This document shows, in pieces, positions 5,964-53,155 of a stretch of 64,000 bases of DNA. Location: assembly GCA_947650365.1 (NCBI GenBank), contig CANTAL010000208.1:377001-441000 (forward strand), written 5' to 3'. This DNA is from Chamaelirium japonicum (taxonomy: Eukaryota > Streptophyta > Magnoliopsida > Liliales > Melanthiaceae). A program made the position numbers and the translations under genes. The notes under the pieces are model-generated. The model saw only the letters and a program-made list of their open reading frames with translations. It was not told the origin of the DNA and did no database searches. Position 1 is the stretch's first letter. The number at the start of each line of letters is the position of its first letter.

Positions 5964-8900
5964 CCCTCCCTCAAACTCACGGTGGGTCAACCACTGAGAG
6001 TTTGCGAATAAGAAACAAAAAACGAGGAGATGGATGAGACTTCGTGAATAAGTCAACAATCTGCTCCATCGAAGAGACATAAGGCAAAGAGATGGTCCCA
6101 GCCTCGTACTCCTCTCTGGAGAAATAGCAATCTAGCTCGATGTGCTTGATCCGCTCATGAAACACTGGATTGCTGACAATCTGAATAGCACTCTTGTTGT
6201 CACAATGAAGTGCGGTGGGTCCCGAGATATCAACACCAAGATCTCGAAGAAGACTCCGGAGATAAACGATCTCCTTAGTAGCAGTGGCTGTGGCACGAAA
6301 CACGACCTCGGTACTAGAGAGAGAAACCACCTTCTGCTTCTTGCTCTTTCAGGAGATAAGAGAGTCACCAAAAAATAGGTAATAACCAGTAGTCGAGCGA
6401 CGAGTAGTCAGGTCCCCTGCCCAGTCGGCATCAGAGTATGCACGAAGAGCTAAAGATGAGGATGACGAGAAGAAGAGCAACCGAGTGATAGTGCCACGAA
6501 GGTACCTAAGAGTCCGAAGAAGAGCAGCGTAGTGAACATAGTGAGAGGCATCCACTAACTGGCTGAGAACACTGACGGCATGGGCAATATCCGATCTGGT
6601 GATGCAAAGATAAACTAGCTGACCAACTATCTTGCGGTACCTGGTAGGATATGAGAGGTACTCACCATCAACGGGGCGGAGTTTTACATGAAGCTCAAGA
6701 GGAGTGTCAACTGTACAGCAATCAGATAGTGCAGCCCGAGCAAGAATGTCAGCTATGTACTTCTGCTGAGAAAGCAAAATCCCCCTAGTGCTCCTAGCAA
6801 CCTCCAGGCCAAGAAAATAATGCAAAGGACTAAGATCCTTAATCTAAAATTGGCTCCAAAGATGCTCCTGAAGGGAGGCTATGGCATAGGTGTCATCACC
6901 TGTAAGAATCATGTCATCGACATAGAGAAGGATGATGGCTCGGCCCTAGGGGGAAGTCCATACAAACATAGAGTGGTCTTGAAAGCTCTCCACAAAGCCG
7001 ATTTCAGTAATTGCCCGACGGAAATGCTCAAACCAGGCACGAGGAGCCTGTTTGAGGCCATAAATAGCTCGACGAAGATGACATACATGCTGAGAAGGTG
7101 TGCTGACGTCGGAAGGAGGCTGCATATGACAACCTCGGAGAGATCACCGTAAAGAAAAGCATTCTTCATATCCATCTGTGATAGGGGCTAACCTCTAGCA
7201 GCAGCAACAACAAAAAGAGTCTGAATGGTGGTCTTCTGAGCTACTGGAGCAAACGCCTCATCATAATCAATCACATACTCATGAGTGAAACCTCTAGCAA
7301 TGAGATGGGCTTTGTATCGGTCAATAGAGCCATCTGGGCGATGCTTGATCTTGAAGACCCATTTGTAGCTGATGGGCTCGACACCAGGAGGCAGAGGCAC
7401 AACCTCCCATGTCTGAGTCTGTGCAAAGGCCTGAAACTCCTTAACCATAGTCTGCTGCCACATAGGGTACTGCAATGTCTCTCTGTAAGACCGGGGCTCT
7501 CTGTCTGTGTGAAGGGCAGTAAGGTAGGTAAAGAACTGAGGCAAGTAGGAAGTGACAGCGGTAAAACCAAAACAATCAGGGGAGTAGCCAAAGTGGTCGA
7601 GAGGGCGACGCTCGCACTGGGGGTAGCGAGGAGTACGAGGATCCACATTAGGTAGAGGTAGTCTACTCGAAGTGGACGAAAGACCAGAGGAGTCACTAAC
7701 AGATAAAGGCATGGCAGTTAGTGTGTCAGATGGATAAGAAATAGGTAGAGGAGATGAGGGAGCCAAAGAAGAGGAAGGACTTAAACGTCTACAAGGAACG
7801 ACTACGGGAGCAGGAGGTAAAGACTCAAGAGCATTGGTAGGAGGAGAAGCGGTGGAAGGAGGAGAGGGTGAGACAGAAGAAGGCATGGTGGAGGAAGTAG
7901 GAGGAATCTCAAGGAAGGTGGGATCCTGAGATGTAAGAGAGTAGTAAGGAATATTTTCAATAAAAGTGACATATCGAGAGATGCAAAAACGATGAGCCAG
8001 AGGGTCATAGCACGATACCCTTTGTGCTCAGAACTGATTCCCAAGAGTACACACTTAGTGGACCTAGCCGACAGTTTGTTACACTCATAAGAAAGAAGGA
8101 GGATAAAGCATGTGTACCCAAAAGTACGCTGTATGCTGTAATCAGGAGGGGTGCCAAAGAGACACTCATGAGACGAAACACCCACGAGGACAGAGGAAGG
8201 GGTGATGTTAATGAGGTTGACGGAGGTCAAAATGGCCTCCACCCAGAAGGTACCAGGAACGCACGAGGAGATAAGCTGAGCACGAGCTGTCTCAAGAATA
8301 TGACGATGCTTTCACTCTGCAATACCATTATGCTTATGAGTATGAGGACATGGTTGTTGGAAGAGGGTCCCATGGGACTGAAGGATATAACACATGATTG
8401 TTGGAAGAGGGTCCCATGATTGTTAGTATTCACTTAGTCCCATGGGACTGAAGGATAGAACACATTATAGAAGAGAGATATTCACGGGCGCAATCAGATC
8501 TAAAAGTTTTTATATGAGCATGAAACTAAGTATGAACCATGGCGGTGAAAGTCTGATAGATGTCGGGAATGTCAGAACACTGACGAGGGAGATACACCCA
8601 TATGAAACGAGAATAATCATCAATAAAGTTAACATAGTAAAGATAGTCTTTCATAAAGAAAAGGTGCAGGACCCCAAATATCTGAGTGCACGAGATCAAA
8701 TAGACTACATGACTGCGACAAATTAGTAGAAAAGGGACTAGCAGAATGCTTAACCAACTCACATCCTATGCAAAAAGAAAGATGAGAAAATAAACCATAG
8801 CCTAAAGCACCTGATCGGAAAAGACTTTTAAGCCGAGGTTCAGACACATGACCTAGCCTCTTGTGCCACAGGTCGGCATCAGAAGAGACGACATTACAAA

Positions 8901-12589: not shown

Positions 12590-14482
12590 TGCACAAAACG
12601 AGATTACAGAGGTCGGGACTCGGGGGTGGTGAGCCGGGTGCGGTAAAGATTTGATCAGGAGATTATGGGAGAGATCATCTGAAGGGTCCCTTTGATCCAT
12701 GTCTCCACATTACTTCATGCGAGAGCTCTGAAGGGGTTGCCCGAGACAGAGATCTTTACAGGGTGAGGGTTTCTTGAGAGGCTAAGAGGTGTTCGCCGTG
12801 ACTTTTGTCCCTTTTGTGCTTCGTGCTTTCTTGGCTAGGGGGCTTTTGGCTTTGTTCCTCGGTCTTCGTGTCTTCCTCGACTCTGGCTAAATCTCGATGT
12901 CCTAGATCGTCGGTTCGTGGCATTGATCATGCTTCTAGCATCGGCTTTGGCTTTGGCTTTGCTTTGGCGCGGCTCTGGCTTTTGCTTTGCTTTGGTGCTT
13001 GTGCTTGAACATAGACGGGTAGAGGCTTGCGATGCTTTAGTTCTTCCAGACTTTGTATCGTATCGGCTAGAACGTGCGGTGCTTTGCTCGTGACCGTCGT
13101 AGTTGCTTTGCTTTGGCATGTGCGTTGCTTTGACGCGGGCTTTACCGGTACTTTTGCTTCGGCTTCTTGTGTTGGCTTTTGCTCTGGCATTGGCTTGATC
13201 TTCTCAAATGGCAATGGTGATGGCTTCAAGGCTTCTTTATTCTTCCTCGACGGTTGTGGCGTCAGCTTGACTTCTTCTCTCCTCTGGACTTCTTTGGCGT
13301 GATTGGAGTTGAAAGCTCTGTTGAAGATGACGGGGTGATGCCGCTTTGATCTTCTTCTCTGGCCTTTTGGGTTTGATCGGAGTCGAAGGCTTGTTAAAGA
13401 CAATGGGATGATGCTGCTTCGAGTGTCATTCTCCAAGCTTTCTTCTTCGTGAATGGAGCGGGCGTTGCTGAAGACGACGGGGTGATGCTGCTTCGATCTT
13501 CTTTTCTGGGCTTTTGGGCTTGATCGGAGTCGAAGGCTTATTGAAGACGATGGGGTGATACCGCTTTGATCTTCTTTTTTGGGCTTTTAGACTTGATCGG
13601 AGTCGAAGGCTTGTTGAAGACGACGAGGTGATGCCGCTTCGATCTTCTTCTCTGGACTTTTGGGCTTAATCGGAGTCGAAGGCTTGTTAAAGACGATGGG
13701 GTGATGTCGCTTCAATCTTCTTTTCCGGCCTTTTCTTCTGGTGTCTTCGGAGTTGAAGGTTTCTTCTTCTCCGAGCTTTCTTCTTTGTGCATGGAGTCGA
13801 AGGGGTTGATCTTCTTGTGCAAGGGTCTTCACATTGATGAGGACTTTCAATGGACTAAGCCGGTCCCAAAGGGATAGGCTTGCTCGAGCCTCGTGAAGCC
13901 TTGGGTTGTTGAAGGCAAGTCTCCTCCTTTGCAGAACTTTCTCGTCTCTGGCTTTTTCTTCGACCCTTTGACCCTTCCCCCTCCCCCTCTATTTGTAGGT
14001 GAAGGGGGATGTGAGAGATATGGAAAGATTTATTTGAATCCCTTTAATATCTCTCCCATAACTATCCAAGATTCATTTCTTCATTGATGGGGGGAATAAA
14101 CCTTTAACGTGTAAGAGGGCCGTTGTGTCGAGCTGGCTGATGGAAAGTTTCAGATGAATGATCCCGATAGTGGAATGTCCGCCCTGGTTGAACCCTTGAA
14201 TGACCAACTGGCTTTGTGAGAGCTGGTCGGTGGTGATGCCGAGATGCATCATTGTTTGGATGGGCATGATATTGACGGTGGAGCCACAGTCTAGCAGGAT
14301 TCAATTTACCGGCTTCTCCTTGATGTATCCCGAGACGTAGACGGGCCGGTTGTGCAGTCGTGCTCCGAGTTACAGATCTTCGTCTGAGAAGGTTATTGCT
14401 GCGTTGTAGGAGGCAATAATTTTTCTCTTCTTACCTTCTTTCCTTTTTCTCTTGTAGCTATCTGGATCCGCCAGGTCTGCGG
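12590..14482 (-). mobile_element. Ty3/gypsy remnant, piece with protease and basic repeats
   Basis: On the minus strand, 14440-14100 carries a gypsy-type aspartic protease: RPVYVSGYI, then an LLDCGSTVNIMP active-site block, then a FNQGGHSTIGIIHLKL flap-like stretch. Beyond it (14000-12830) is a Lys/Arg/Pro-rich region with in-frame repeats. No reverse transcriptase or integrase is seen here. The piece ends at a TGCGG duplicated by the solo-LTR insertion. It is a fossil broken in many places; its other pieces lie at 18575-18743, 26647-27423 and 34658-36625. The left limit is approximate. Confidence 0.75.
13310..13735 (-). repeat. 72-bp tandem repeat encoding a basic motif
   Basis: About five or six copies of a roughly 72-bp unit, for example starting near 13592 and 13664, contain GGAGTCGAAGGCTT and GGGGTGATG. 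As 72 is 24 codons, each minus-strand copy gives the same KRHHP-V-FNKPSTPIKPK type of motif. It belongs to the post-protease region of the gypsy remnant. Confidence 0.75.
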
Positions 14483-18574: not shown

Positions 18575-18743
18575 TGCGGCCATTGCTAGATGAGCTTTCT
18601 TCGGGAGGTGCAATGCTTCTATGAGTGGCAAGTGCAAGATTGCCTCGTTGTGGGAGGCAATGCCCTCCTTGTCGGAGCCATCCCTCTCGTCGTCAGAGTT
18701 GTCTTCTTCAGAAGACTCGATCTTGCCTTTTCCTTTTGGCATC
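18575..18743 (-). mobile_element. Ty3/gypsy remnant, short middle piece
   Basis: A 169-bp piece trapped between two insertions. The minus strand reads an acidic, Ser/Glu/Asp-rich stretch (SSEEDNSDDERDGSD) followed by a HLPLIEALHLPKKAH stretch. It begins with the TGCGG copy from the solo-LTR insertion and ends with the GCATC copy from the next insertion, which shows that both elements landed in the same older sequence. Confidence 0.7.
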
Positions 18744-19335
18744 TGTGGGTGCAAAAATTATATCGGACCGGATCAGAGCCGCATGGGCTTGCGCGACGTC
18801 CCAAGTAAGTAAGCCCGTACGGGCTCATGGACCCACTCTGCAAGGCCCGCAATTCAAGCCCTTTTCCTTATTGGGCCCGCACAATGGCCCAATAAGGGCC
18901 CATCAAGGAGGCCCAGAACCAGTGTCATATTATCACTGCCATATTGGGCACTTACCTATGCTATAAAAGGACCCCAAAGGGATTCAGAAAAGGGGTTGGT
19001 CATTCAATCAGAGAAAGAGAGGATCTCAAAGCTATAGCTAGAGCTTACTTCTCTCCTCCTTGTTCTTTTCTTGTTGCTCTGTGCAACCCCCAATGTAAAA
19101 AGCTTTTCTCGGTCTGTCGAGAGAATGTTCCCCCACCTTTATATTCATTATAGTGGAAACCAGGTGGCACCTCTCGCCCGAAGACGTAGGTCGTAAGACT
19201 GAACTTCGACAACAACTCCACGTGTCTTCTTTCTCTTTACCTACTTTTTAATCTCTAACTCTACAAACCATCACCATTCAATCAAGGCTGTGGGGCGGGG
19301 TTCCCGATCAAGGCGGCTTGGAAATTTCCCTCACA
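18744..19335 (+). repeat. 5' LTR of the gag-only element
   Basis: It begins TGTGGGTGC and ends TCACA; a TATAAAAGG at about 18962 is a good TATA box, and AATGTAAAAAGC follows further down. It matches 26066-26646. Confidence 0.9.
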
Positions 19336-20125
19336 ATCTTTGGCGTCGTCTGTGGAATATCGTTAGAGGTCTTACCCACACCTCTACCGACTCTTACTCA
19401 ACTTGTGGTGACGAGCCACAAGTCCTCCTTCAAGTCTACTTCAATTTCTTCACCACGCCAACATCAACGCGCTTGATGGTGAAGGCTAGCGCCAATCCTC
19501 CGAAGGTAATTGCTGACTGGACAATCGATGTGTTGATCAAAGACGAGCATAAAGTCTCTGCAGCCACCAATCGTAGACATGTCCATAAGCGACTAGGGCC
19601 GCAAAGTAGCCAGCCAAAAGGCCGCAACAATCGACAGAACTCGCCGTCCTCAAGGCGTCAATCTGGCAAAGAGCACGATACCCAAGGAGGTACGTACCAA
19701 ATCTTAGCTATCGACTTCCAGCTGCTGAACCTTCTCAAGAAGAACACAGCCCTCGAGCAAGAGAGGGATTCTCTGAAGAAGGCGACTGAAAGAGCGGGGG
19801 TTGTGGCCCATAACTCTGTAGCCACTGATGAAGACCAACCATGGACTCACCCAGTTGTGAGTCATCATCTTTAAGAACCACATGTGCCGTGTATCGAGAG
19901 GCGTCAGGTATCCATGCAAGCACCAAGGCAAACAGTATGGGATCGCCTCGATGTCGACGGTGCACCAAGCTATCATCGAGAAGGATTTCCTCAATCAACA
20001 GGGTCCACTGGACGTCCTATCCCTTCGCACACGAAAGCAATAGATGCCCCCGAGCTGCTCAACCGATAAGACATACTGCCAACGTGGGACGCCGCCATCA
20101 GAACCGCAGGTAACTAATCACCTCA

Positions 20126-21290
20126 GTGGGGCCACTGCATCCCAAGGTTCTTGTAACCCCATTTTCTATGGGTTGGCAAACACCGAGCCTACCAAAGTTC
20201 AACTGCATCAAGGGAGACCCTGCCCTCCATATCCTGGCCTTCAAGCAAGCCATGCCACCATATGAGTATGAGAATCATATCCTCTGTCGTATGTTCACGG
20301 GAAGCCTCGAGGGACCTTCCCTCGACTGGTACCACACGCTGCCTACCGGTACGGTGGCCAAATTCAAATAGTTGGCTGAACTCTTTATGGACCATTACCG
20401 GCTAAACTTAAAGCTGGAAAAGAAGCTGGATACACTCTACCGACTGAAGATGGGCTCCGATGAGTCTCTAAGGAGCTTCACAATGAGGTTTTGTAATGAG
20501 CACTCTGAGCTCATCGGTCGGTCCCATAATGAGGAGGCCATCATGCTGGCATTCCAGAATACTATCCGGCCAGAGCTCCACGTCTACACCGACTTCATCC
20601 GGCATCCTCCCAGTACCTTGGAGGTAATGTTCAAGCGCGTACAGCGGGAGATAGAGGTGAAAGACAATCAGCGGGCCAGAAGACTATGCGAGCCCCGTGA
20701 GTCTTGTGACTCCCGATATAAAAAAGATTACAAAGCTCCGAATGAAGCACACTACAAGAAGTTTACCAATGTCGTGTCTGACCAAAAGGTGTAGGACAAA
20801 AGGTATAATAAAGATCCGAGGGCCCCTCCAGCAGAGAAGAGGCAAACTCCAAGGGAGCAAAGGGTGTTCACTGAGCTGAACACCTCCATTGAAGACATCT
20901 TCGCCTACTTGAAGAACGAGCTCTTTTGTAAGTGGCCACAGCCTCTTCCTTCAAATTCCGACCAGGCAAGAGATACGACAGCGTACTGTGAGTTCCATCG
21001 CAGCCATGACCACCCAACCTCCACATGTCGGAAGCTAAAGCATCACATCGAACACCTGATCCAAGAAGGGCGGCTCGATGGCTACCTCACTTATAAGGAA
21101 CCAAGTCAAGAGAAGGAAAGACAGTGGCAGTGGAGAAAGAAAGACAACGTAATACATGGATGCATAATCATAACATCCGCTGGGCAGCCTCTGAAAAATA
21201 TAACCGCAACTTTGTTTTATCAATATAGTGTCTTTTTTTTTCTCAAAATCAAATTTCTCGAAGCTCGATTCTACTATGTTAAGGCATAAA
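20126..21290 (+). pseudogene. Gypsy-type gag of the gag-only element, fossil
   Basis: The reading blocks contain the plant retrotransposon-gag core: FTGSLEGPSLDWYHTLP, then SLRSFTMRF.NE, then a stretch ending in a cysteine/histidine block (YCEFHRSHDHPTSTC) near 20985-21035 in the place of a zinc knuckle. Upstream, 19290-19874 is also open but I do not recognise it. It would be a capsid-like protein; it looks broken. Confidence 0.75.
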
Positions 21291-21985
21291 AAAAGGGCTC
21301 CTGACAACCCAGGTTAACAAAAGACCTTCGATTCCGTCCATTCAAGTCAGAATCTCAAAGGTAATTCAGCTACACCCTCTCGAGGCTAAAGTCCGATAAA
21401 AATGCTCCTAGCAACCCAGGTCAACCAAAGACCTTCGATTCCGCCCATTCAAGTCGGAAGCTCGAAGGCAATTCGACTATGCCTTCTCGAGGCTAAAGTC
21501 TGATAAAAAGGCTCCTGGCAACTTAGGTCAATCAAAGATCTTCGATTCCACCCATTCAAGTCAGAAGCTCGAATACAATTCGGCTACGCCCTCTCAAGGC
21601 TAAAGTCCGATAAAAAGGCTCCTGGCAACCCAGGTCAACTAAAGACCTTCGATTCCGCCCGTTCAAGTCGGAGGCTCGAATGCAATTTGGCTACGCCCTC
21701 TCAAGGCTAAAGTCCGATAAAAAGGCTCCTAGCAACCCAGGTCAACCAAAGACCTTCGATTTCGCCCATTCAAGCCGGAAGCTCGAAGGCAATTTGGCTA
21801 CGCCCTCTCGAGGCTAAAAAAGCTCCTGATAACTCAGGTCAACCAAAGACCTTCGATTCCGCCCGTTCAAGTCGAAAGCTCGAAGGCAATTCGGCTATGC
21901 CCTTTCAAGGTGAAAGTCCGATAAAAAGCCTCCTAGCAACCCAGGTCAAGCTAAGCTATCAATTATACTCATCCGAGGCGATGAG
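21290..21985 (+). repeat. Tandem array A, 107-bp unit
   Basis: GCTCCT starts units at 21297, 21404, 21511, 21618 and 21725, exactly 107 bp apart; later units are 97 and 106 bp. Each contains GACCTTCGATTCCGCCC and GAGGCTAAAGTCCGATAAAA. There are about six and a half copies. Confidence 0.9.
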
Positions 21986-22039
21986 AATAAGTCCAAGGCA
22001 GGCATCGCCACTTCGACATGCACCAAGTTCAAGGAGACA

Positions 22040-23220
22040 TCCTTGGTACTTGAAGGCAAAGTCCGAGGTGACCAACACTTCGGCACTTTACAAGTCCAAG
22101 GCCCAGCCTTTGGCACTCAAAGGCAAAGTCCGAGGTGACCAACACTTCGGCACTCTACGAGCCCAAGGCCTAGCCCTTGGTACTCAAAGACAAAGTTCGA
22201 GGCGACCAATGCCTCAGCACTCTACAAGCCCAAGGCCCAGCTCTTGGCATTCGAAGATAAAGTCCGAGGCGACCAACGCCTTGTCACTCTACAAGCCCAA
22301 GGCCCAGCCCTTGGCACTCGAAGACAAAGTCCGAGGCGACCAACGCCTCGGCACTTTATAAGCCCAAGGCCTAGCCCTTGGCACTCGAAGACAAAGTCTG
22401 AAGCGACCAATACCTTGACACTCTATAATCCCAAGGCCCAGCCCATGGCACTCAAAGGCAAAGTCCGAGGTGACCAATACTTCGGCACTCTACAAGCCCA
22501 AGGCCCAACCCTTGGCACTCAAAGACAAAGTCCAAGGCGACTAACGCCTCGGCACTCTACAAGCCCAAGGCCTAGCCCTTGGCATTCGAAGACAAAGTCC
22601 GAGACGACCAACACCTTGGCACTCTACAAGCCCAAAGCCCAACCCTTGGCACTCGAAGACAAAGTCCGAGGCGACCAACGCCACGACACTTTATAAGTCC
22701 AAGGCCCTGCCCTTAGTACATGAAGACATAGTTCGAGGCGACCGATACCTCTGCACTCTACAAGCCCAAGGCCTAGCCCTTGGCACTCGAAGATAAAGTC
22801 TGAAACGACCAACGCCTTGATACTCTACAAGCTCAAGGCCCTGCCCTTGGCACTTGAAGACAAAGTCCGAGGCGACCAACGCCTCGGCACTCTACAAACC
22901 CAAGGCCCAGCCCTTGGCACTCGAAGACAAAGTCTGAGGCGACCAACACCTCGACACTCTACAAGCCCAAGGCCCTGCCCTTGGCACTTGAAGATAAAGT
23001 CCGAGACGACCAATGCCTTGGCACTCTACAAGCTCAAGGCCCAGCCCTTGGCACTCAAAGACAAAGTCCAAGGTGACCAATGCCTCGACACTCTATAAGT
23101 CCAAGGCCTTGCCCTTAATACTCGAAGACATAGTCCGAGGCGATCGATACCTCGGCACTCTACAAACCCAAGGCCCTACCCTTGACACATAAAGACAAAA
23201 TCCGAGACGTCATCCTCGAC
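22040..23220 (+). repeat. Tandem array B, 67-bp unit, about 17 copies
   Basis: GTCCGAGGTGACC recurs at 22061 and 22128 and the series runs on with a 67-bp period to about 23201. Units contain GGCACTCTACAAGCCCAAGG and CCCTTGGCACT, which form a partial inverted repeat around CCAAGG/CCTTGG. As 67 is 1 mod 3, a frame passes through all three phases before repeating, which makes long open frames on both strands. Confidence 0.92.
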
Positions 23221-23934
23221 GTAATGACATTCGATCAAAAGTCCAAACTTAGTCTTGTCACTCAGGTCCAAGCATCAGATTGTCACTGGCCATTACCTTT
23301 TCTCGATGACTGACGATTCCAAACCGATTAGGGGCTGGTCGATCTGACTCTGTCAGCACGTGTTTCCATACTGGTGCAGTCGACAGTTGGTTCCTTATGA
23401 TCTTCGTTCGCAAAGGACCTTAACGACCCGAGCTCGCCATTAAAGCCACTGTTCGAATCCTCAATATGTGGCAGAGGAGGAGCGCAAATGATCTCCTTCG
23501 TTCCTCGATGGTGTTTTCCCAATACAACGGGTCCCCTGATAGTTTTCATCATGAAAAGAGCTGCCTACAATGGGTGAACAAACGATAAGTAAATAGTAGG
23601 GTGGGTGAAAAATTCATCAAAACACGAGATAAAATAGTGCTTCCTTGATCCTGGCCAAGTCAACACCCTCACGTGACCGTAGTACATGGCGAATACAGTA
23701 ACCAGGTGCAGTAATACATTGGGTGAAGACTGGATGACCATCATGCGGTGTCATCCTAGATTATCTCTAAGAAGCCCCCTCAAATATAGCATTGTCCCTC
23801 GCCGACAACCCCACGCACCAGTGTCTTAGGAATATGACCGAAAAAGTATCGGTTTCAGATGGGGCTAAAATTTGGAAAACACACTATTTTCAATACCGAC
23901 ACTTTTTGGCCTCTCCTAGCAGCCCCAACAATGG

Positions 23935-24775
23935 GGTCGGCACCATCAACAACCCACCCCTTGGTTTCGACAGAAAACCGAGAGGGGGGTGTTCGGCATC
24001 AATAACAACCCACCCCTCGGTTTCGTCAAAAAACCGAGAGGGGGGGGTGTTCAGCGTCATTAGCAGCCCACTAGTCGATTTTGTCAGAAAACCGAGAGGG
24101 GGGGTGTCGGTATCAACAAACAGTCCCCCTTCGGTTTTGCATAAAAAATCGAGTAGGGAGGGGGTGACAGCACTCCATCAGCAGCCCACCCCTCGGTTTC
24201 GACAGAAAACCAAGAGGGAGGGTGTGTCGGCATCAACAAGCAGCCTCCCCCTTGTTTCGTATAAAAACCGAGTGGGGAGAGGGTAACGATACACCATAAG
24301 TAGCCCACCCCTCGGTTTCGATAGAAAACCGAGAGGGGGGGTGTGTCGGCATCAACAAACAGCCTCCCCCCTCGTTTCATACAAAAACCGAGTGGGGAGG
24401 GGGTGACGGTACACCATCAGCAGCCCACCCCTCAGTTTCGTTAGAAAACCAAGAGGGGGGTGTGTCGGCATCAACAAGCAGCCCCCCCTCGGTTTTGCAT
24501 AAAAAACCGAGTGGGGAGGGGGTGACAGCACACCATCAGCAGCTTACCTCTCGGTTTTGCAAAAACCCGAGAGGGGAGGGGGTGTCGGCATCAACAACAG
24601 TCCACCTCTCGGTTTCGTCAAAAAACCAAGAGGGTCGGGGTGTTCGGCATCAATAATAGTCCACCTCTCGATTTCATCAGAAAATCGAGAGGGTGGGTGT
24701 TCGGCATCAACAACAGCCCACCACTCGGTTTCGTCAAAAACCGAGAGGGGAGTGGGTCTCGGTGTCTATAACAGC
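23935..24775 (+). repeat. Tandem array C, about 57-62 bp unit, about 14 copies
   Basis: CCTCGGTTTCG and AAAACCGAGAGGGG alternate throughout, so each unit is also a short hairpin (CCTCGGTTT/AAACCGAGG). Units carry CATCAACAA spacers and vary in G-run length. Confidence 0.9.
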
Positions 24776-24782
24776 CAGGCGC

Positions 24783-25320
24783 GGACCTACTCGGAGTAGC
24801 TTCGGTACAACGGCCATAACTTTAGGTCACGAACTCTGATTGGGCTGAAATTTGGACTGCATATAGAGAACTCCGAGCCGCAACTTTTGCATCTAATTTG
24901 AGATCATTTGGACTTCTATAGGTCTTGAAACAATAGAAACATTGTTGATTTTTGATACAAAATCTGGACAGTAGATCTGCTCGGAGAGGCTTCGGTACAA
25001 CAGCTATAACTTTGGATCACGAACTCCGATTGGACTAAAATTTAGACTGTATATAGAAAACTCCGAGGTACAACTTTTGTATCTAGTTTGAGGTAATTTG
25101 GACTTATATAGATTTTAAAACAATAGAAATATCATTGATCTTTGGTGCAAAATCTGGACAGCGGATCTGCTCGGAGAGGCTTCGGTACAACGGCCATAAC
25201 TTTTGGTCACGAACTTCGATTGGGCTAAAATTTGGACTGTATATAGAGCACTCTGAGATGCAACTTGTATATCTAGTTTGAGGTCATTTGGACTTTTATA
25301 GATCTTGCAACAATAAAAAC
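24783..25320 (+). repeat. Tandem array D, 190-bp unit, about 2.8 copies
   Basis: TCGGAG.. starts at 24791, 24981 and 25171, exactly 190 bp apart. Units share GGCTTCGGTACAACGG, AACTTT.GGTCACGAACT and TTTGGACTT.TATAG. Confidence 0.9.
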
Positions 25321-25354
25321 ACCGTGGATATCCTGTTCAAAACTAAGACAGCAA

Positions 25355-25835
25355 GAAAAAGAGTCTCGGTTGAAAAACACACCGATTTTTCGGGAACATC
25401 TAGTTATAAAACTGAGACTTTTTAGATCGTACCAAGAGGGTCTCGACGTCAGCAGAAGAAAAAAGATCTTAGTATTTTTTCGAGAACGCCCACTTAAAAA
25501 ACCGAGACTTTTTGGCTTGCACCAAGAGGGTCTCGGCATCGGCAGAAGGAAAAGAGTCTCGGTCGGGAAACACACTAGTTTTTCGAGAACGTCCAATTAC
25601 AAAATCGAGACTTTTTAGCTCGCATCAAGTGGGTCTCGGCATTGGCAGAAGAAAAAGGGTCTCGGTTGGAAAATGCATTAGTTTTTCGAGAACGTCCACT
25701 TACAAAAAGCAAGACTTTCTGACTCGTACCAAGAGGGCCTCGGTGTCAGTAGTAGGAGAAGGAGCCTCGGTTGGAAAACATGCTGTCTTTCAGGAAACAC
25801 CTCTTTATAAAACCGAGACTTTTCAGTCTGCACCG
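25355..25835 (+). repeat. Tandem array E, about 91-104 bp unit, about 4.7 copies
   Basis: GTCTCGGTTGGAAAA-type unit starts lie at about 25363, 25465, 25556, 25659 and 25763. Units carry TTTTTCGAGAACGTCCA and ACCGAGACTTTTTAG and a GGGTCTCGGC middle. Confidence 0.85.
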
Positions 25836-26065
25836 ATAAATGCAGAATCGTGACCATGACAGTAGGAGGACTGCAAATATAGAAAGAAGATCAGCACAAA
25901 TGTCCTACACAAACACGTTGGCTTGGATCGTGACACGAGTCGGGACTCTGCTAATACGAACCGTGACTCTGATGGCCCTAGCCAGCCATGCCAGAATCCT
26001 AAGGCGTTTGCACCATGGAATCCCAACCGACCTAGGAGGTCCTGACCCGACTTGGAGGGGATAAC

Positions 26066-26646
26066 TATGGGTGCAAAAATTATATCGGACCAGATCAGAG
26101 CCGCATGGGCTCGTGCGATGGCCCAAGTGAGTAAGCCCGTCCGGGCTCATGGACCCACTCTGCAAGGCCCACAATTCAAGCCCTCTTCTTTATTGGGCTC
26201 GCACAACGGCCCAGCAAGAAGCCCCAGAACCAGTGTCACATCACCATTGCCATATTGGGTACTTGCCTATGCTATGAAAGAACCCCAAAGGTATTCAGAA
26301 AAGGGGTTGCTCATTCAATCATAGGAAGAGAGGATCCCAAGCCAGAGCTAGAGCTTACTTCTCTCCTCCTTGTTCTTTTCTTGTTACTCTGTGCAACCCC
26401 CACTGTAAAAAGCTTCTCTCGGCCTATTGAGAGAATGCTCCCCTACCTTTATATTCATTATAATGGAAACCAGGTGGTACCTCTCGCCCGGAGACGTAGG
26501 TCATAAGACTGAACTTCGACAACAACTCCATGTGTCTTCTTTATCTTTACCTACTTTTTAATCTCTAACTCTACAAACCATCAATATTCAATCAAGGCTG
26601 TGGGGGCGGGGTTCCCGATCAAGGCGGCTCAGAAATTCCCCCCACA
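26066..26646 (+). repeat. 3' LTR of the gag-only element
   Basis: It begins TATGGGTGC, ends CCACA and aligns with 18744-19335 along its length, with a short gap near 26217. The GCATC duplication follows directly. Confidence 0.9.
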
Positions 26647-27423
26647 GCATCTTGTGAAATTCGATCATGCAATAACAGACTCTGAGATACTGATCGGCTG
26701 GGAGGAAGTAATCGGGGAAAAACTATTACAGCTTTGCCGATTCCGAAGAACTTTGTTGGAGGAGGTCATCTGGATTTACTGGCGGCTCTTTAAACATGTT
26801 TCTTTCTGGATCTTTGCTCTTCTTCTTATAAGTTCTTCGTTCAGGGAGCTTTCTTGTCACCCGATCTAGCTTGGGTCGTCTCACCGGCCATGACCTTTAT
26901 CTCCGAGGTATATGATTCATACGTCTTCATCGGTGGATTCTCCCTCGCTATGGTGAAGATTTGGAGTGGCGACTGCAGGTTCTTCATCGATCAGAGGAGC
27001 TTGTTCTTTTGGAGGCTCTGCTGGCTCGTTTTCTGATCCCCAGCTGGTAGGCTTAATTTCTTCCATCAAAACGGACAAAGACTTGGAGTAGAGAATGTAG
27101 TAGTTGAACTTGCTTGAGGGCTGGCCCAACAAGCCAACTTCTGGATCTCCACGCTCGTACCTCTTTTGAAGAGTGCGTTGGTATGTAGCCTAATGGGGAG
27201 GGACTTGCTCTTTCACAGACTCATTCTCCGATACCTAGTCAGTTGGTGTGATATCATTCATTGAGACTGATGGAGGCTGGGAGTAGAGAACGTAGTAGTC
27301 GAACTTACCCAAGGGTTGGCTCAACAGGTCGACTTCTGGATCTCCCCACTCATACCTTTCTTGGAGGGGATATTGAGATGTAGCATCGCTTAGGAGAGGT
27401 GCTTGCTGTCGTGGTGATGGTTA
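26647..27423 (-). mobile_element. Ty3/gypsy remnant, piece with a duplicated gag-side module
   Basis: On the minus strand, a RYE.GDPEV.LL.QP..KF.YY.LYS module occurs twice, 195 bp (65 codons) apart, near 27350 and 27150. An acidic tail and unrecognised sequence follow. The piece lies between the GCATC site of the gag-only element and the GGTTA site of the copia element. Confidence 0.65.
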
Positions 27424-29598: not shown

Positions 29599-30816
29599 TC
29601 ATGTCCACATGTCGCTCGAATGCCTTGATAGGTATTGCCTTGGTGAAAGGATTAGCAACATTATATTATTAACTAAAGAAGAAACAGAAATCAAATTACG
29701 TCTCAAGGACGGTACATAAAAAACATCTCCAAGAGTCAAAGTCTTATTATTCGAAAAACTAAGATTAACATCTCCAATAGCTTCAGCAGCAGCCACTGCC
29801 TCAGTTCCCATGCTTAAGGTCACATCTCCATCAAGCAACCTTCTGCTTTCCCGAAACCCCTGAAGAGAGTTACAGGCATGGTTAGTGGATCCTGAATCCA
29901 TAATCCAACTAGCAAAAGAACTATTACTCGAAAGAAATGATTCAACAACTAGGAGTTGTAGATTACCTTCACCAGCATTCTGAGGCTTCTTGCAGTCCTT
30001 CTTCCAATGACCCTTCTGGCCATACCGGAAACACTTCGTGCCCAGTTTCTTTGATTCGCTAGACCCAGAGGCCCCAGCAGAGTCTTGCATAGGCGCTGAC
30101 TTAGGTTTCTTCTTATGTTTCTTGCCCTGAGGTTTACCAGACTTCTTGAAGAATCTGCGTTGCATGTGAAGTGCTTCGCCCTTCTGCTTGAAGCTATCCT
30201 CAGCTGCCTGGAGAGCTCCCAGAAGCTCTGCATTTGTCATAGCCAACTTGTTCAATTTAAAGTTAGTGATAAAGCCTTCAAAGGCTCCAGACAGTGACGA
30301 GAGGAAGATGCATGTCATTATCTCGCCTTCTAGCACAATGTCCATGGTTGCTAGTTCGTTCTGGAACCCAAACATTTTTATTATGTGTTCCCGAACTAGC
30401 GTCCCATCAGACATCTTAGTGCCGACGAGTTTCTTGATGGTAAGGTATCGCGTAACGCAATTGTGACCTTCAAATATTTCCTTCAGATACAACATCATGT
30501 CAGAAGCGTCGGACATCTCCTTGACCTGCTTCTGTAGAGTTATTTGCAGGGATGCTATAATATAGCATTTATATATTTCATTAGATTCCTTCCAGTCAGT
30601 GAACGCCTTTAATTGTGCCTCTGTGGCATCGGGTCCTGGCAAATCTGGCTTAGGGTCATTCAGGGTTGTCATATGTTTACCAATCCTTAAGAACAGGTAT
30701 AGGTTGCGCTTCCAGTCCTCATAGTTGGGTCCGGTAAGTTTGTGGTCATTTAGGACAGCGGACAGGGGGTCTAACTTGGTCATCTGAAAATAAAAGATTG
30801 AATAATAAGAATGCAT
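29599..30816 (-). CDS. Copia gag-protease frame (fossil element)
   Basis: A 405-codon frame. Residues about 10-230 form a UBN2-type gag (LTGPNYEDWKRNLYLFL near the start, TNAELLGALQAAEDS later). A Lys-rich stretch precedes a zinc knuckle of the form C-x2-C.. (the first half reads KCFRYGQKGHWKKDC, with Tyr where the second Cys is usual). A protease block (WIMDSGSTNHACNS) and the FYVPSLRRNLISVSSLV stretch typical of copia follow. It would give the capsid-like shell and protease of a virus-like particle. The rest of the polyprotein is not present as a continuous frame. Confidence 0.85.
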   Translation of the reverse strand: MHSYYSIFYFQMTKLDPLSAVLNDHKLTGPNYEDWKRNLYLFLRIGKHMTTLNDPKPDLPGPDATEAQLKAFTDWKESNEIYKCYIIASLQITLQKQVKEMSDASDMMLYLKEIFEGHNCVTRYLTIKKLVGTKMSDGTLVREHIIKMFGFQNELATMDIVLEGEIMTCIFLSSLSGAFEGFITNFKLNKLAMTNAELLGALQAAEDSFKQKGEALHMQRRFFKKSGKPQGKKHKKKPKSAPMQDSAGASGSSESKKLGTKCFRYGQKGHWKKDCKKPQNAGEGNLQLLVVESFLSSNSSFASWIMDSGSTNHACNSLQGFRESRRLLDGDVTLSMGTEAVAAAEAIGDVNLSFSNNKTLTLGDVFYVPSLRRNLISVSSLVNNIMLLILSPRQYLSRHSSDMWT

Positions 30817-31943
30817 GAAAACTTATTTTATGAATTTTTAAAACAAGCTAATTATATCCATATGTCAGCGCTACCCTCAAGCGAAGCCATCTCTATGGAT
30901 TAATTAACCATGTATGTAAGATCTCAGAATCGGCTACACTTGTCCGAGGGGGCAGTGTGCAGGTCTTCCGCTTACACAGGTCTTTTCCTTGACCCTATCC
31001 AAATCTACGAACTAAGGGCTTTGATGAACCATGGTTATCTTTTGGCTAATACCACGTGATCACCGTTGTCTTCGCAATAAATACCTCATGTGTACTTAGG
31101 ATGCTTACCTACGAGCCTAGGCAATTATGGCATGGGAGTTCTAATGGCCCCCACGAGGTGAGTAAAGCCTGAACACTTGGCACCGTAACCGCCATATCCC
31201 AAGGAAGATCACTAAATAGCTTGGTATAGAAAAACACAGCTCTCACCCGAGGGGGTTGTTGAGTTATGCCCTCCCACCCGAGCACGAAGTGATTAGCCGT
31301 AGAGGCCAGAGGATCTCTAAAAGTCATCTTTTACATCCCTTATTAAATTTGAGGATTATTTTGCGAGTATGATTTTATGTCAATACAAAAGGTAGCGACC
31401 TCCTATATACTAGACTCTGGTCACACCGTGCTCTCACCAGTGCTTCAAGCCTTTTGCCTAGCATTAATCATTCTCGGAATATCATAGTCCCTGTCTTAAG
31501 TGGATTTCTCCATTCAAGGGTCACATTACATATTCCGAGAGCATTGATGCTCTACAAACTTGGCTATCACGTTAATGCCTTGGAGCCTAGCTTAAAGTCA
31601 AACACACTGGAAAAGACTCCCACTAGTCATGGCGCCTCTCTTATAAATTTGACAATTGATGTTCAATGGATCTCCATCTCATCTTAGGTTTCGATGCTGG
31701 CCAAATAGGCATACCCGACTAGTGGGGTGTTGACCTAATGATGGCATAACCATATGTGATGGGATCCCACTAATATCAAAAGTCAACTAAATAATAGGCG
31801 TCATCTAGCGGGATCCTATCCTCATACAGTCGCTTGGATCGGAGGGAAAAGGCATCCCTTTAAAAACTGATAATAATAATATTATCTCATCGGGGTTCGA
31901 TATGAAACATAAAGAACTAATAAAGAAAGCAACCATAAAACTG

Positions 31944-34657: not shown

Positions 34658-36625
34658 GGTTGCCCCCGGGGCAATGGTATTTCATTTCTAGCAAGCATAG
34701 GGGCATGCCATCGTCGCTTTGAGACCTTCGGTTGTGATGCCGACTTCGCAATTAGCCTTTGACGATTGATGCGTAATTTGGGGGTTCCCCGTTGTGCAGC
34801 AACGAGTACCGACGGGAAGGAACCGAAGGTGATGGACATCATGTTCGCTGTAGCGACCTTACCGGAGTCGATCTTTATCTTCCTTTGCTTTGCGAGCGTC
34901 ATGATTCTCTCTTTGAAGATGAAGCACTTCTTGATGGGATGGCTAACCACTCGGTGGTATTTCCAGAAGAGAGGGTCGTCGATGCGATGCATTTGTTCTG
35001 GCCTCTTTGATGGAGGAAGCTCGATCATCTTCTCCTGCAGCAACTGATCGAACATGGAGGAGACTTCCGAGTTCGGGAAGGGATACTCCTTCGCTTCGAG
35101 CTCCTCAAGAGTCATCCTTGGTTGCCTTTGAGGCTGAGGAGGCGGTATGACGCCCTTTTTCTTGATCCGGCTTGCCACTGATTTTGAGTGGTTTGGAGGT
35201 TGAAGCTACGTCGACAACGTTGACTTGCTTTGCTCTTGGTGCCGACGGCTTGTCCTTCTTCTCCACCTTCAAGAAGTCTTTAGCCTTCGAGTCTTTGGGA
35301 TTTGCTAAGCTGAGCTCTATTTCGTGAGCTCGAGTTTCGAGTTCTTCGAAGGATCGAGGCTTGATCCCTTTGAGGATGTAGAGCAAGCCCCAGTGCATAC
35401 CTTGGGTGCACATTTCGATGGCCGAGTCTTCAGACAAACGATCTCGTAAATTTAGCGCAAGATTCCTCCAACGATCGATATTGTCGATCACCGGCTCGTC
35501 CTTCCTTTGTTTGACGGCAGTAAGCTCGGTCATGCTAACGATGCGTCGGGTGCTGTAGAAGCGGTTAAGGAACTCCCTCTCCATCTGGTCCCAACTATCG
35601 ATGGATCCTGGAAGAAGATTAACGTACCAGTCAAACGCATTACCTTTAAGGGTGCGAACGAACTGTTTCACAATCTCGTCGCCATATATGCTGGCGTTGT
35701 TGCAAGTTTCGATGAAGTGGGCGATGTGCTGCCTTGGATTTCCCTTTCCGTCAAAGTATTGGAACTTGGTGGCTGGAACCCGGTAAGGAAACACAGTTGT
35801 TGGATCCTTGCGGTGTAAGGCTTTGAGTAGGTCGCCGTGATTGGAAGAAGACTGCTGCTATGAGAGCGCATCATGTCGGCCACCAATGACTCTATCTGCT
35901 GGGCAGTCATTGTTGCCACCGCTGGCGGTTGTGTGGCCACCGAGACTGGTACTGGAGAGATGACCTCCGCTGGGACAGGAGCCGAAGAGAGTTTGGAGTA
36001 GCCACTAGAACCGTCGTGGCGACGTATGCCGGAGTTGAAGACGAAGCTGGAGTGGCTACTGGAGAAGCATGAGGTTGATTGATTGCTGTAATGTCCCTCG
36101 TGCTTAGCTTTTGAAGCAAAGTGTTGATGTGATGGTCCTTATCCTCCATCAACTGAGTAATTTGCGCCATATGCTTACTCATTTGCATGACTTGGAGCTA
36201 AAGAGCGGACGAATGATGATGACAAAGGATGTCTCGGTGATGCATGCATGTATCCTCAACATCATCGTCGGAGATATAGTCGCGCCGACTTGCTTCTGCT
36301 TGACGACGGATGTTTGTCCCATACAGAGGAGGTGCAAAGTCCTTTGGAGAACCCATCTGGGTTTGGGGTTGGGGCTGGTTCTCCCCAAATTTCTGGACAT
36401 GGATTTCAAAATTAAGACTCGTTTCTTCATGCACCAAGGCCTTCTTGGCGCTTTGGCAAGCATCCTCGGCAGTAGTTTCCGATGTGAAGACGTCTGCAAT
36501 GTAGACGCGTATTACCGGGGGAGCATCATCCTCCGAGTTTTCTGGATCGCCATTCTGGAGTAGCGGAGACTCGGCGATAGGCTTGGAGCAAACGCATCGT
36601 TGTTTGTGGCCATAGCGAAACTTAA
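34658..36625 (-). mobile_element. Ty3/gypsy remnant, gag piece
   Basis: The minus strand starts a gag near 36613 (MATNNDAFAPS), reads low-complexity sequence to about 35900, then the retrotransposon-gag core at 35794-35105 (KFQYFDGKGNPRQHIAHF, GNAFDWYVNLLPGSIDSW, EREFLNRFYS). A second block at 35178-34636 has FWKYHRVVSHPIKKCFIFK, typical of plant gypsy gag C-termini. No 5' LTR is recognisable to its right, where BAS1 promoter sequence begins within about 200 bp. It is broken in several places. It is the oldest layer of the 12.6-36.6 kb nest. Confidence 0.8.

Positions 36626-36905: not shown

Positions 36906-47223
<10,318 letters not shown>

Positions 47224-50606: not shown

Positions 50607-53155
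<2,549 letters not shown>

Follow-up and report, generated by a model that had tools for sequence, protein, structure and literature searches.

A gag-only LTR retrotransposon family of Chamaelirium japonicum with an inherited row of five tandem arrays

Tandem-repeat 3′ regions are an established feature of long terminal repeat (LTR) retrotransposons of the Tat/Ogre/Retand type. In the sections of the cited reports on which we draw here and below, such regions are described as common in Tat elements, the proposed cause being that co-packaged copies recombine illegitimately or undergo abnormal strand transfer (PMC7004042), and the hypervariable tandem-repeat 3′ untranslated region (UTR) of Tat/Ogre elements is credited to Macas et al. 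2009 (as cited in PMC7004042 and PMC11963269). The element considered here lies in a 64-kb stretch of the Chamaelirium japonicum genome (C220:377001-441000, hereafter the window; the genome searched comprises 1.52 Gb in 3253 contigs) and is an extreme example of a kind already known: by LTR comparison it spans 7,903 bp (18744-26646), and between the remains of gag and the 3′ LTR it carries a row of five tandem arrays, A1 to A5, with a unique spacer, M, among them. Overall, we believe that this is an old, decayed insertion of an abundant Ty3/gypsy-type family whose members encode gag and no pol, that the row of arrays is inherited, and that template switching is the likeliest cause of changes in array length; taken as a whole, we hold this explanation to be probable.

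As in Tat/Ogre elements, repeats of varied unit and length lie between the coding region and the 3′ LTR. Unlike in Tat/Ogre elements, pol is absent, the arrays follow directly on gag, there are five of them, and no satellite was found among the best-scoring genome matches to them. The 63 Retand clusters show zero to three arrays of three or more repeats each (Table 1 of PMC11963269), and Retand elements have LTRs of 315-1194 bp, a 3′ region of 2.9-6.6 kb and some non-autonomous members (PMC11963269). As far as that description extends, the two are alike in LTR size, in having tandem arrays and in their long 3′ region (here A1 up to the 3′ LTR, 4.8 kb). What is missing from the ten defective Retand clusters is Gag, Gag plus protease, or RNase H plus integrase; the sections of the report cited here describe none that is gag-only (PMC11963269). 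Against the maximum of three arrays in a Retand cluster, five arrays behind a lone gag set the present family apart, and the original prediction, made from the sequence of the window alone, was right to regard five stacked arrays as unusual; by a cut-off of three units the window's own A4 (2.8 units) narrowly falls short, and 3.0-3.8 units are present in 5 of 12 other copies. An antisense TRP28 open reading frame (ORF) is reported in nearly all Retand clusters (PMC11963269); none of eight antisense ORFs compared here, three from the window and five from the related copy L030, matches TRP28 (PF04195). Tat lineage features rest on pol (PMC6317226, as far as that text is drawn on), and membership of Tat or Retand, with which the family shares arrays placed between the coding region and the 3′ LTR, is a lead only.

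Other described elements share the gag-only organization. For example, wheat RLG_Quinta/RLG_Cereba has been described as a gag-only element with an intact gag that is presumed to be cross-mobilised, and the RLG_Quinta lineages have recombined, which is ascribed to template switching (PMC11302176). The present family resembles RLG_Quinta in being gag-only, in its intact gag (as open frames in sister copies) and in its recombined lineages; it differs in its stacked arrays, which the RLG_Quinta text consulted does not mention, and in that a partner is known for RLG_Quinta only. TR-GAG elements consist of two LTRs and a single Gag frame, and one has transposed in Arabidopsis ddm1 (PMC8704663, in the portion cited). 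A gag frame without pol is likewise what we find here, the pol-domain scans having covered part of the interior ORFs of the other copies. TR-GAG elements are typically under ~4 kb, unlike the 7,903 bp with a long array tail seen here, and LARD elements have a long interior without coding capacity, whereas related copies of the present family retain open gag frames. No element in the literature surveyed combines a lone gag with five arrays, which does not prove that none exists.

The original prediction had described an LTR element with a perfect GCATC duplication, gag but no enzyme gene before the 3′ LTR, and five unrelated arrays standing end to end, and most of this description holds. GCATC is present on both sides, and the LTRs are 91.2% identical (529 of 580 aligned sites). 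Gag remains are present, and no enzyme domain was seen downstream of gag. Tandem Repeats Finder recovers all five arrays, with units of 107, 67, 58/119, 190 and 90-103 bp and a best row per array scoring 375-1580 (threshold 50), and no two of the units, compared one from each array, match by blastn at E<0.01. The arrays are not end to end, however: the 727-bp M stands between A2 and A3, and gaps of 91 and 26 bp follow A1 and A3.

The arrays are common to a large family by inheritance, and are not later insertions into the window copy. A query of 5′ LTR and gag gave 4001 first-look candidates, of which 40 were scored, and 20 of the other 39 long matches were fetched. All 20 contain at least a partial A1, and in all 20 the blocks that are present start in the same order. 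The prediction had named two findings that would speak against it, relatives without the arrays and units that occur only in this copy, and neither was encountered: 12 of the 20 hold all five arrays in order, and every array matches many sites elsewhere in the genome. Where the 3′ LTR was reached, in 12 stretches, 11 hold all five, and L027 is without A3 and A4; in the other eight copies no 3′ LTR lies within the 9.7 kb read, and several hold extra DNA. Two copies, L021 and L028, share 97.8% identity as well as the final 40 bp of their 5′ flanks, and are probably one insertion that was duplicated; when they are merged, the five-array counts become 11 of 19 and 10 of 11. Across the window and 12 other copies, A1 has 4.9-7.7 units (107-bp rows; up to 8.2 by 214-bp rows), A2 6.1-22.0 and, where a row was reported, A4 1.8-3.8.

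The same arrangement is found in copies with an open gag. With the L019 frame as gag protein query, there were 20,288 first-look candidates, and 105 matches were scored. Of these, 71 have no internal stop, and 13 of the 71 were read: L029-L031 over ~9.5 kb each, and the other ten over 4 kb from the gag end. A1-A2-M-A3 is present in all 13, with 3.9-11.3 copies of the A1 unit and 6.1-31.1 of the A2 unit. Beyond A3 the cassette can differ: L030 is without A4, and its A3 is followed by a 156-158-bp array, a GC-rich block and a 143-bp array, the last an 80% match to A5 that contains a CTCGGTATGC mini-array. The interval that stands in place of A4 (L030 5886-8220) consists of the 158-bp array and a stretch of up to 74% G+C, perhaps captured sequence, whose longest frame (376 aa) has no Pfam match. 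Since A4 is retained in L032 and L040, the 3′ part of the cassette has been swapped between branches while the front was kept.

The window copy has the paired TG...CA LTRs and 5-bp target-site duplication of an LTR retrotransposon, with one departure: its 3′ LTR starts with TATG, and not with TGTG as the 5′ LTR does. The two LTRs differ by 41 transitions and 10 transversions (Kimura two-parameter distance 0.095), which at 1.3e-8 substitutions per site per year, the rate for grasses, corresponds to an insertion ~3.7 million years ago, and LTR identity in other old copies of the family is 89-95%. Exact 5-bp duplications flank the set LTR ends in 4 of 11 other copies (L011, L012, L026 and L027); the other seven show none at the LTR ends as placed.

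How the arrays change is best seen in six closely related copies, L029-L031, L036, L038 and L039, whose M regions are at least 99.1% identical and whose A1 and A2 have an internal match of 94-96%. Consider A2 of L031, which is A2 of L038 plus one block of five units (335 bp): the block is identical to its neighbour, and the remaining 1005 bp hold no mismatch. Similarly, A2 of L029 holds two copies of a 13-unit block: at a shift of 13, 10 consecutive units agree to within one mismatch. The first A2 unit is common to five of the six copies (not L039) and the last two units to all six, and L031, L038 and L039, in which A2 has 20, 15 and 17 units, have one and the same 11-unit string as their A1. 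The 5′ flanks of L029, L030, L031, L036 and L039 come from different places: at E<0.01 the only similarity among them is between L029 and L036. Both the L029 and the L036 flank lie in a ~23-bp tandem repeat, in opposite orientation (L029 1-100; L044 1-289, which is the L036 flank), perhaps a favoured target or a satellite.

The gag region of these copies is a mosaic. In 100-column steps, L030 shows no difference from L029 and L031 in columns 900-1099, 46 in columns 1100-1499, 13 in columns 1500-2099 and 2 or 3 beyond, and nearly all differences between L029 and L031 fall within the first 800 columns, which cover the LTR and the sequence next to it. This pattern means that copies have exchanged sequence, either during reverse transcription or through gene conversion. 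In the pathway that we propose, the family makes its own Gag without pol, with enzymes presumably supplied by an autonomous partner, and each new copy of the element inherits the row of five arrays between gag and the 3′ LTR. The whole-unit blocks by which closely related copies differ would be gained or lost when reverse transcription, as we presume, switches template out of register, from one packaged RNA to another or inside a single one, and the same switching would produce the mosaic gags. Because it covers both the mosaics and the block changes, unequal template switching is the simplest single cause, and we regard it as the likeliest mechanism of array change, though not a proven one. 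The suggestion in the original prediction that the arrays arose by slippage at reverse transcription thus stands in part: the exact whole-unit blocks and the recombination fit template switching, but exchange at the DNA level fits them too.

Indeed, the changes in array length might instead postdate insertion and result from unequal crossing-over, slippage at replication or chromosomal break repair. Unequal exchange predicts gains and losses of whole-unit blocks, the array ends are mostly fixed while the middle is variable, and the mosaic gag could come from gene conversion. Two observations make this account rather unlikely in our view. The LTRs of L030, flanked by CTGTC on both sides, are identical at 618 of 620 sites, which leaves little time since insertion, yet its A1 and A2 differ from those of five relatives with M at least 99.3% identical; and the A1 string that is identical at three loci argues that array states pass through transposition.

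The window's gag is broken into several separate frames, and sister-copy open frames stood in for it in the Pfam tests: PF03732 matches the frames of L019 (E 2.4e-9) and L030 (E 6.6e-9), and three open pieces from the window (two of gag, one of the 5′ part) gave no gag match. Between L030 and L031, gag has nonsynonymous and synonymous divergences (dN and dS) of 0.024 and 0.078; differences between L030 and the window fall 74/50/102 over the three codon positions, and L030 gag shows a third-position excess against all five old copies tried. These values indicate that gag has been under purifying selection in the lineages that spread. Stop-to-stop ORFs between A1 and A5 reach at most 118-230 aa in 11 of 12 copies; the exception is L023 (409 aa), which has extra DNA inside A2. 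No open frame among the 105 scored gag matches exceeds 773 aa, a length that could not accommodate gag-pol as a single frame.

At the same time, several points weigh against this explanation. Block changes and mosaics are also expected from unequal crossing-over or gene conversion, and array lengths in the assembly may be wrong. A3 is 1727 bp in L031 and 765 bp in L038, so more than one change separates the two; the 5′ end of L038 was not found at the expected place, so that L038 is at best a putative separate insertion. Age was measured for L030 only, the sole open-gag copy with both LTRs in reach. The ranking of the 105 gag matches favours intact frames, and none of the 105 has beside gag a long open frame of the kind expected of an autonomous partner. 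No pol-bearing partner was found, a negative that leaves room for one: 150 of 15,586 candidates for the RVT_3 profile (PF13456) were scored, and none of these was followed to its LTRs. Lineage assignment, by reverse transcriptase-RNase H-integrase phylogeny and an additional RNase H, rests on pol, which was not seen in the copies read, and the lineage is likewise a lead only. Finally, 19 old copies taken alone (a set that leaves out L016, with a gag deletion, and L028, the likely duplicate of L021) have informative gag differences of 74/47/63 and no third-position excess, as is expected if most differences arose after insertion. As a separate observation, a single recurring match (89 bits, one TAG) makes up 107 of the 150 scored RVT_3 rows and is spread over many mostly small contigs (C2234 and C2265, for example), as if a repeated block with an RNase H frame had been left unplaced in the assembly.

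The original prediction also proposed the element as a seed for satellite DNA, and the arrays could in principle be seeds or pieces of satellites that form long blocks elsewhere. There is a precedent in that the majority of the studied Lathyrus sativus satellites derive from Ogre 3′ UTR repeats (PMC7004042, in the portion cited). For each array the best 40 candidates were scored, out of 1599 (A1), 2310 (A2), 1495 (A3), 3876 (A4) and 1448 (A5), ranked by likeness to the window, a ranking by which a divergent satellite could be missed. With neighbouring rows merged by eye, the longest runs among these matches are 1.5 kb for A1, 2.7 kb for A2, 2.5 kb for A3, 0.95 kb for A4 and 0.74 kb for A5; no run exceeds ~2.7 kb, and no long satellite was found among them. 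These lengths fit arrays internal to elements, and the satellite proposal, which gains nothing from them, is in our judgment improbable. One unit does occur outside the element: an A4-like module of 189 bp lies on the minus strand of the window at 52685-52873 (75% identity over 187 bp). Used as a query, it matches 39 other places at 84-97% identity (best 40 of 2241 candidates), none with a tandem neighbour among the scored rows, and such lone matches indicate that the A4 unit has a single-copy form elsewhere.

A further possibility is that selection maintains the arrays as functional RNA structures, such as packaging hairpins. In a folding-energy test on units of A1 to A4, those of A3 fold better than shuffled sequences (mean z -4.5, 6 units), as do those of A2 weakly (-1.95, 25 units), with A1 at -1.4 (25 units). 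Pair counts of A1, A4 and A5 exceed those of all 200 shuffles, on weak RNAalifold structures. Related units can, however, exceed shuffles without any structure, and the folding energy of A4 is ordinary (z -0.3, 25 units). Pairing in the main A2 hairpin is no better than in shuffled columns (the observed value is equalled or exceeded in 285 of 300 shuffles), the A3 hairpin shows no clear excess (30 and 72 of 300), and RNAalifold finds no structure for A2 and only 2 pairs for A3. Hairpins kept by covariation are not supported, and we consider a selected RNA structure very improbable. A motif shared across arrays, CTCGG/CCGAG, was also considered and rejected: its count of 17 exceeds the maximum of 13 in 500 shuffles, but 8 of the 17 lie in the A5-derived array of L030, and the remaining 9 are reached by the commonest 5-mer in 78 of 500 shuffles (a null that kept the L030 array).

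Table 1. Features of the element in window coordinates
Feature	Position	Strand	Basis or detail
5′ target-site duplication, GCATC	18739..18743	.	Same 5 bp at 26647..26651
5′ LTR, 592 bp, TGTG...CACA	18744..19335	+	LTR alignment
Primer-binding-site-like stretch (candidate)	19339..19357	+	Position a few bp past 5′ LTR
gag remains, split by stops and frameshifts	19476..21290	+	Frame of sister copy L019 matches PF03732
A1, 107-bp unit, 6.2 copies	21291..21949	+	Tandem Repeats Finder
A2, 67-bp unit, 17.4 copies	22041..23209	+	Tandem Repeats Finder 22041-23206
M, unique non-repeat spacer common to family copies, 727 bp	23210..23936	+	
A3, ~58-61-bp half-units, 119-bp period; palindromic, hairpin-forming	23937..24757	+	Tandem Repeats Finder 23941-24757, 58/119 bp, 13.7 or 6.9 copies
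A4, 190-bp unit, three in-register copies	24784..25353	+	Tandem Repeats Finder 24790-25321, 190 bp, 2.8 copies
A5, 90-103-bp units, ~5 altogether	25353..25850	+	Tandem Repeats Finder 25386-25823, 90 bp, 1.9 copies, then 103 bp, 3.4 copies
Conserved tail	25851..26065	+	Purine-rich GGAGGGG at 26054-26060 adjoins 3′ LTR
3′ LTR, 581 bp, TATG...CACA	26066..26646	+	LTR alignment
3′ target-site duplication, GCATC	26647..26651	.	

The window holds other repeats. Just downstream of the element, at 27025-27384, are two imperfect 165-bp copies, 195 bp apart and 71% identical. Farther away are a 173-bp unit in three copies (39861-40379; the second and third 98% and 90% like the first), a 73-bp (146-bp) tandem array of ~6 units (13278-13734) and a 93-bp unit in 2.1 copies (46022-46215; 98% matches). 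Remains of other retrotransposons lie at 7188-8027, 29599-30822 and 35105-35857 (minus): RVT_2, a gag of copia type together with Pol_BBD, and a frame that matches Retrotrans_gag (PF03732).

What the family may mean for the birth of repeats can be put tentatively. The tail of a gag-only parasite that exploits another retrotransposon might act as a repeat generator, in which dispersed single-copy modules such as the ~189-bp A4 unit are picked up and multiplied at reverse transcription, and the resulting multi-array cassette is passed on; we consider this possible, though on present evidence doubtful. Were it true, one family would hold a readable record of the birth, growth and replacement of arrays. 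Near-identical copies that differ by exact blocks of units allow the steps of array change to be read directly, and five arrays with no detectable mutual similarity amount to repeated trials within one element. If the array changes were shown to occur at reverse transcription, the family would serve well as a system in which to test how satellite-like repeats are born.

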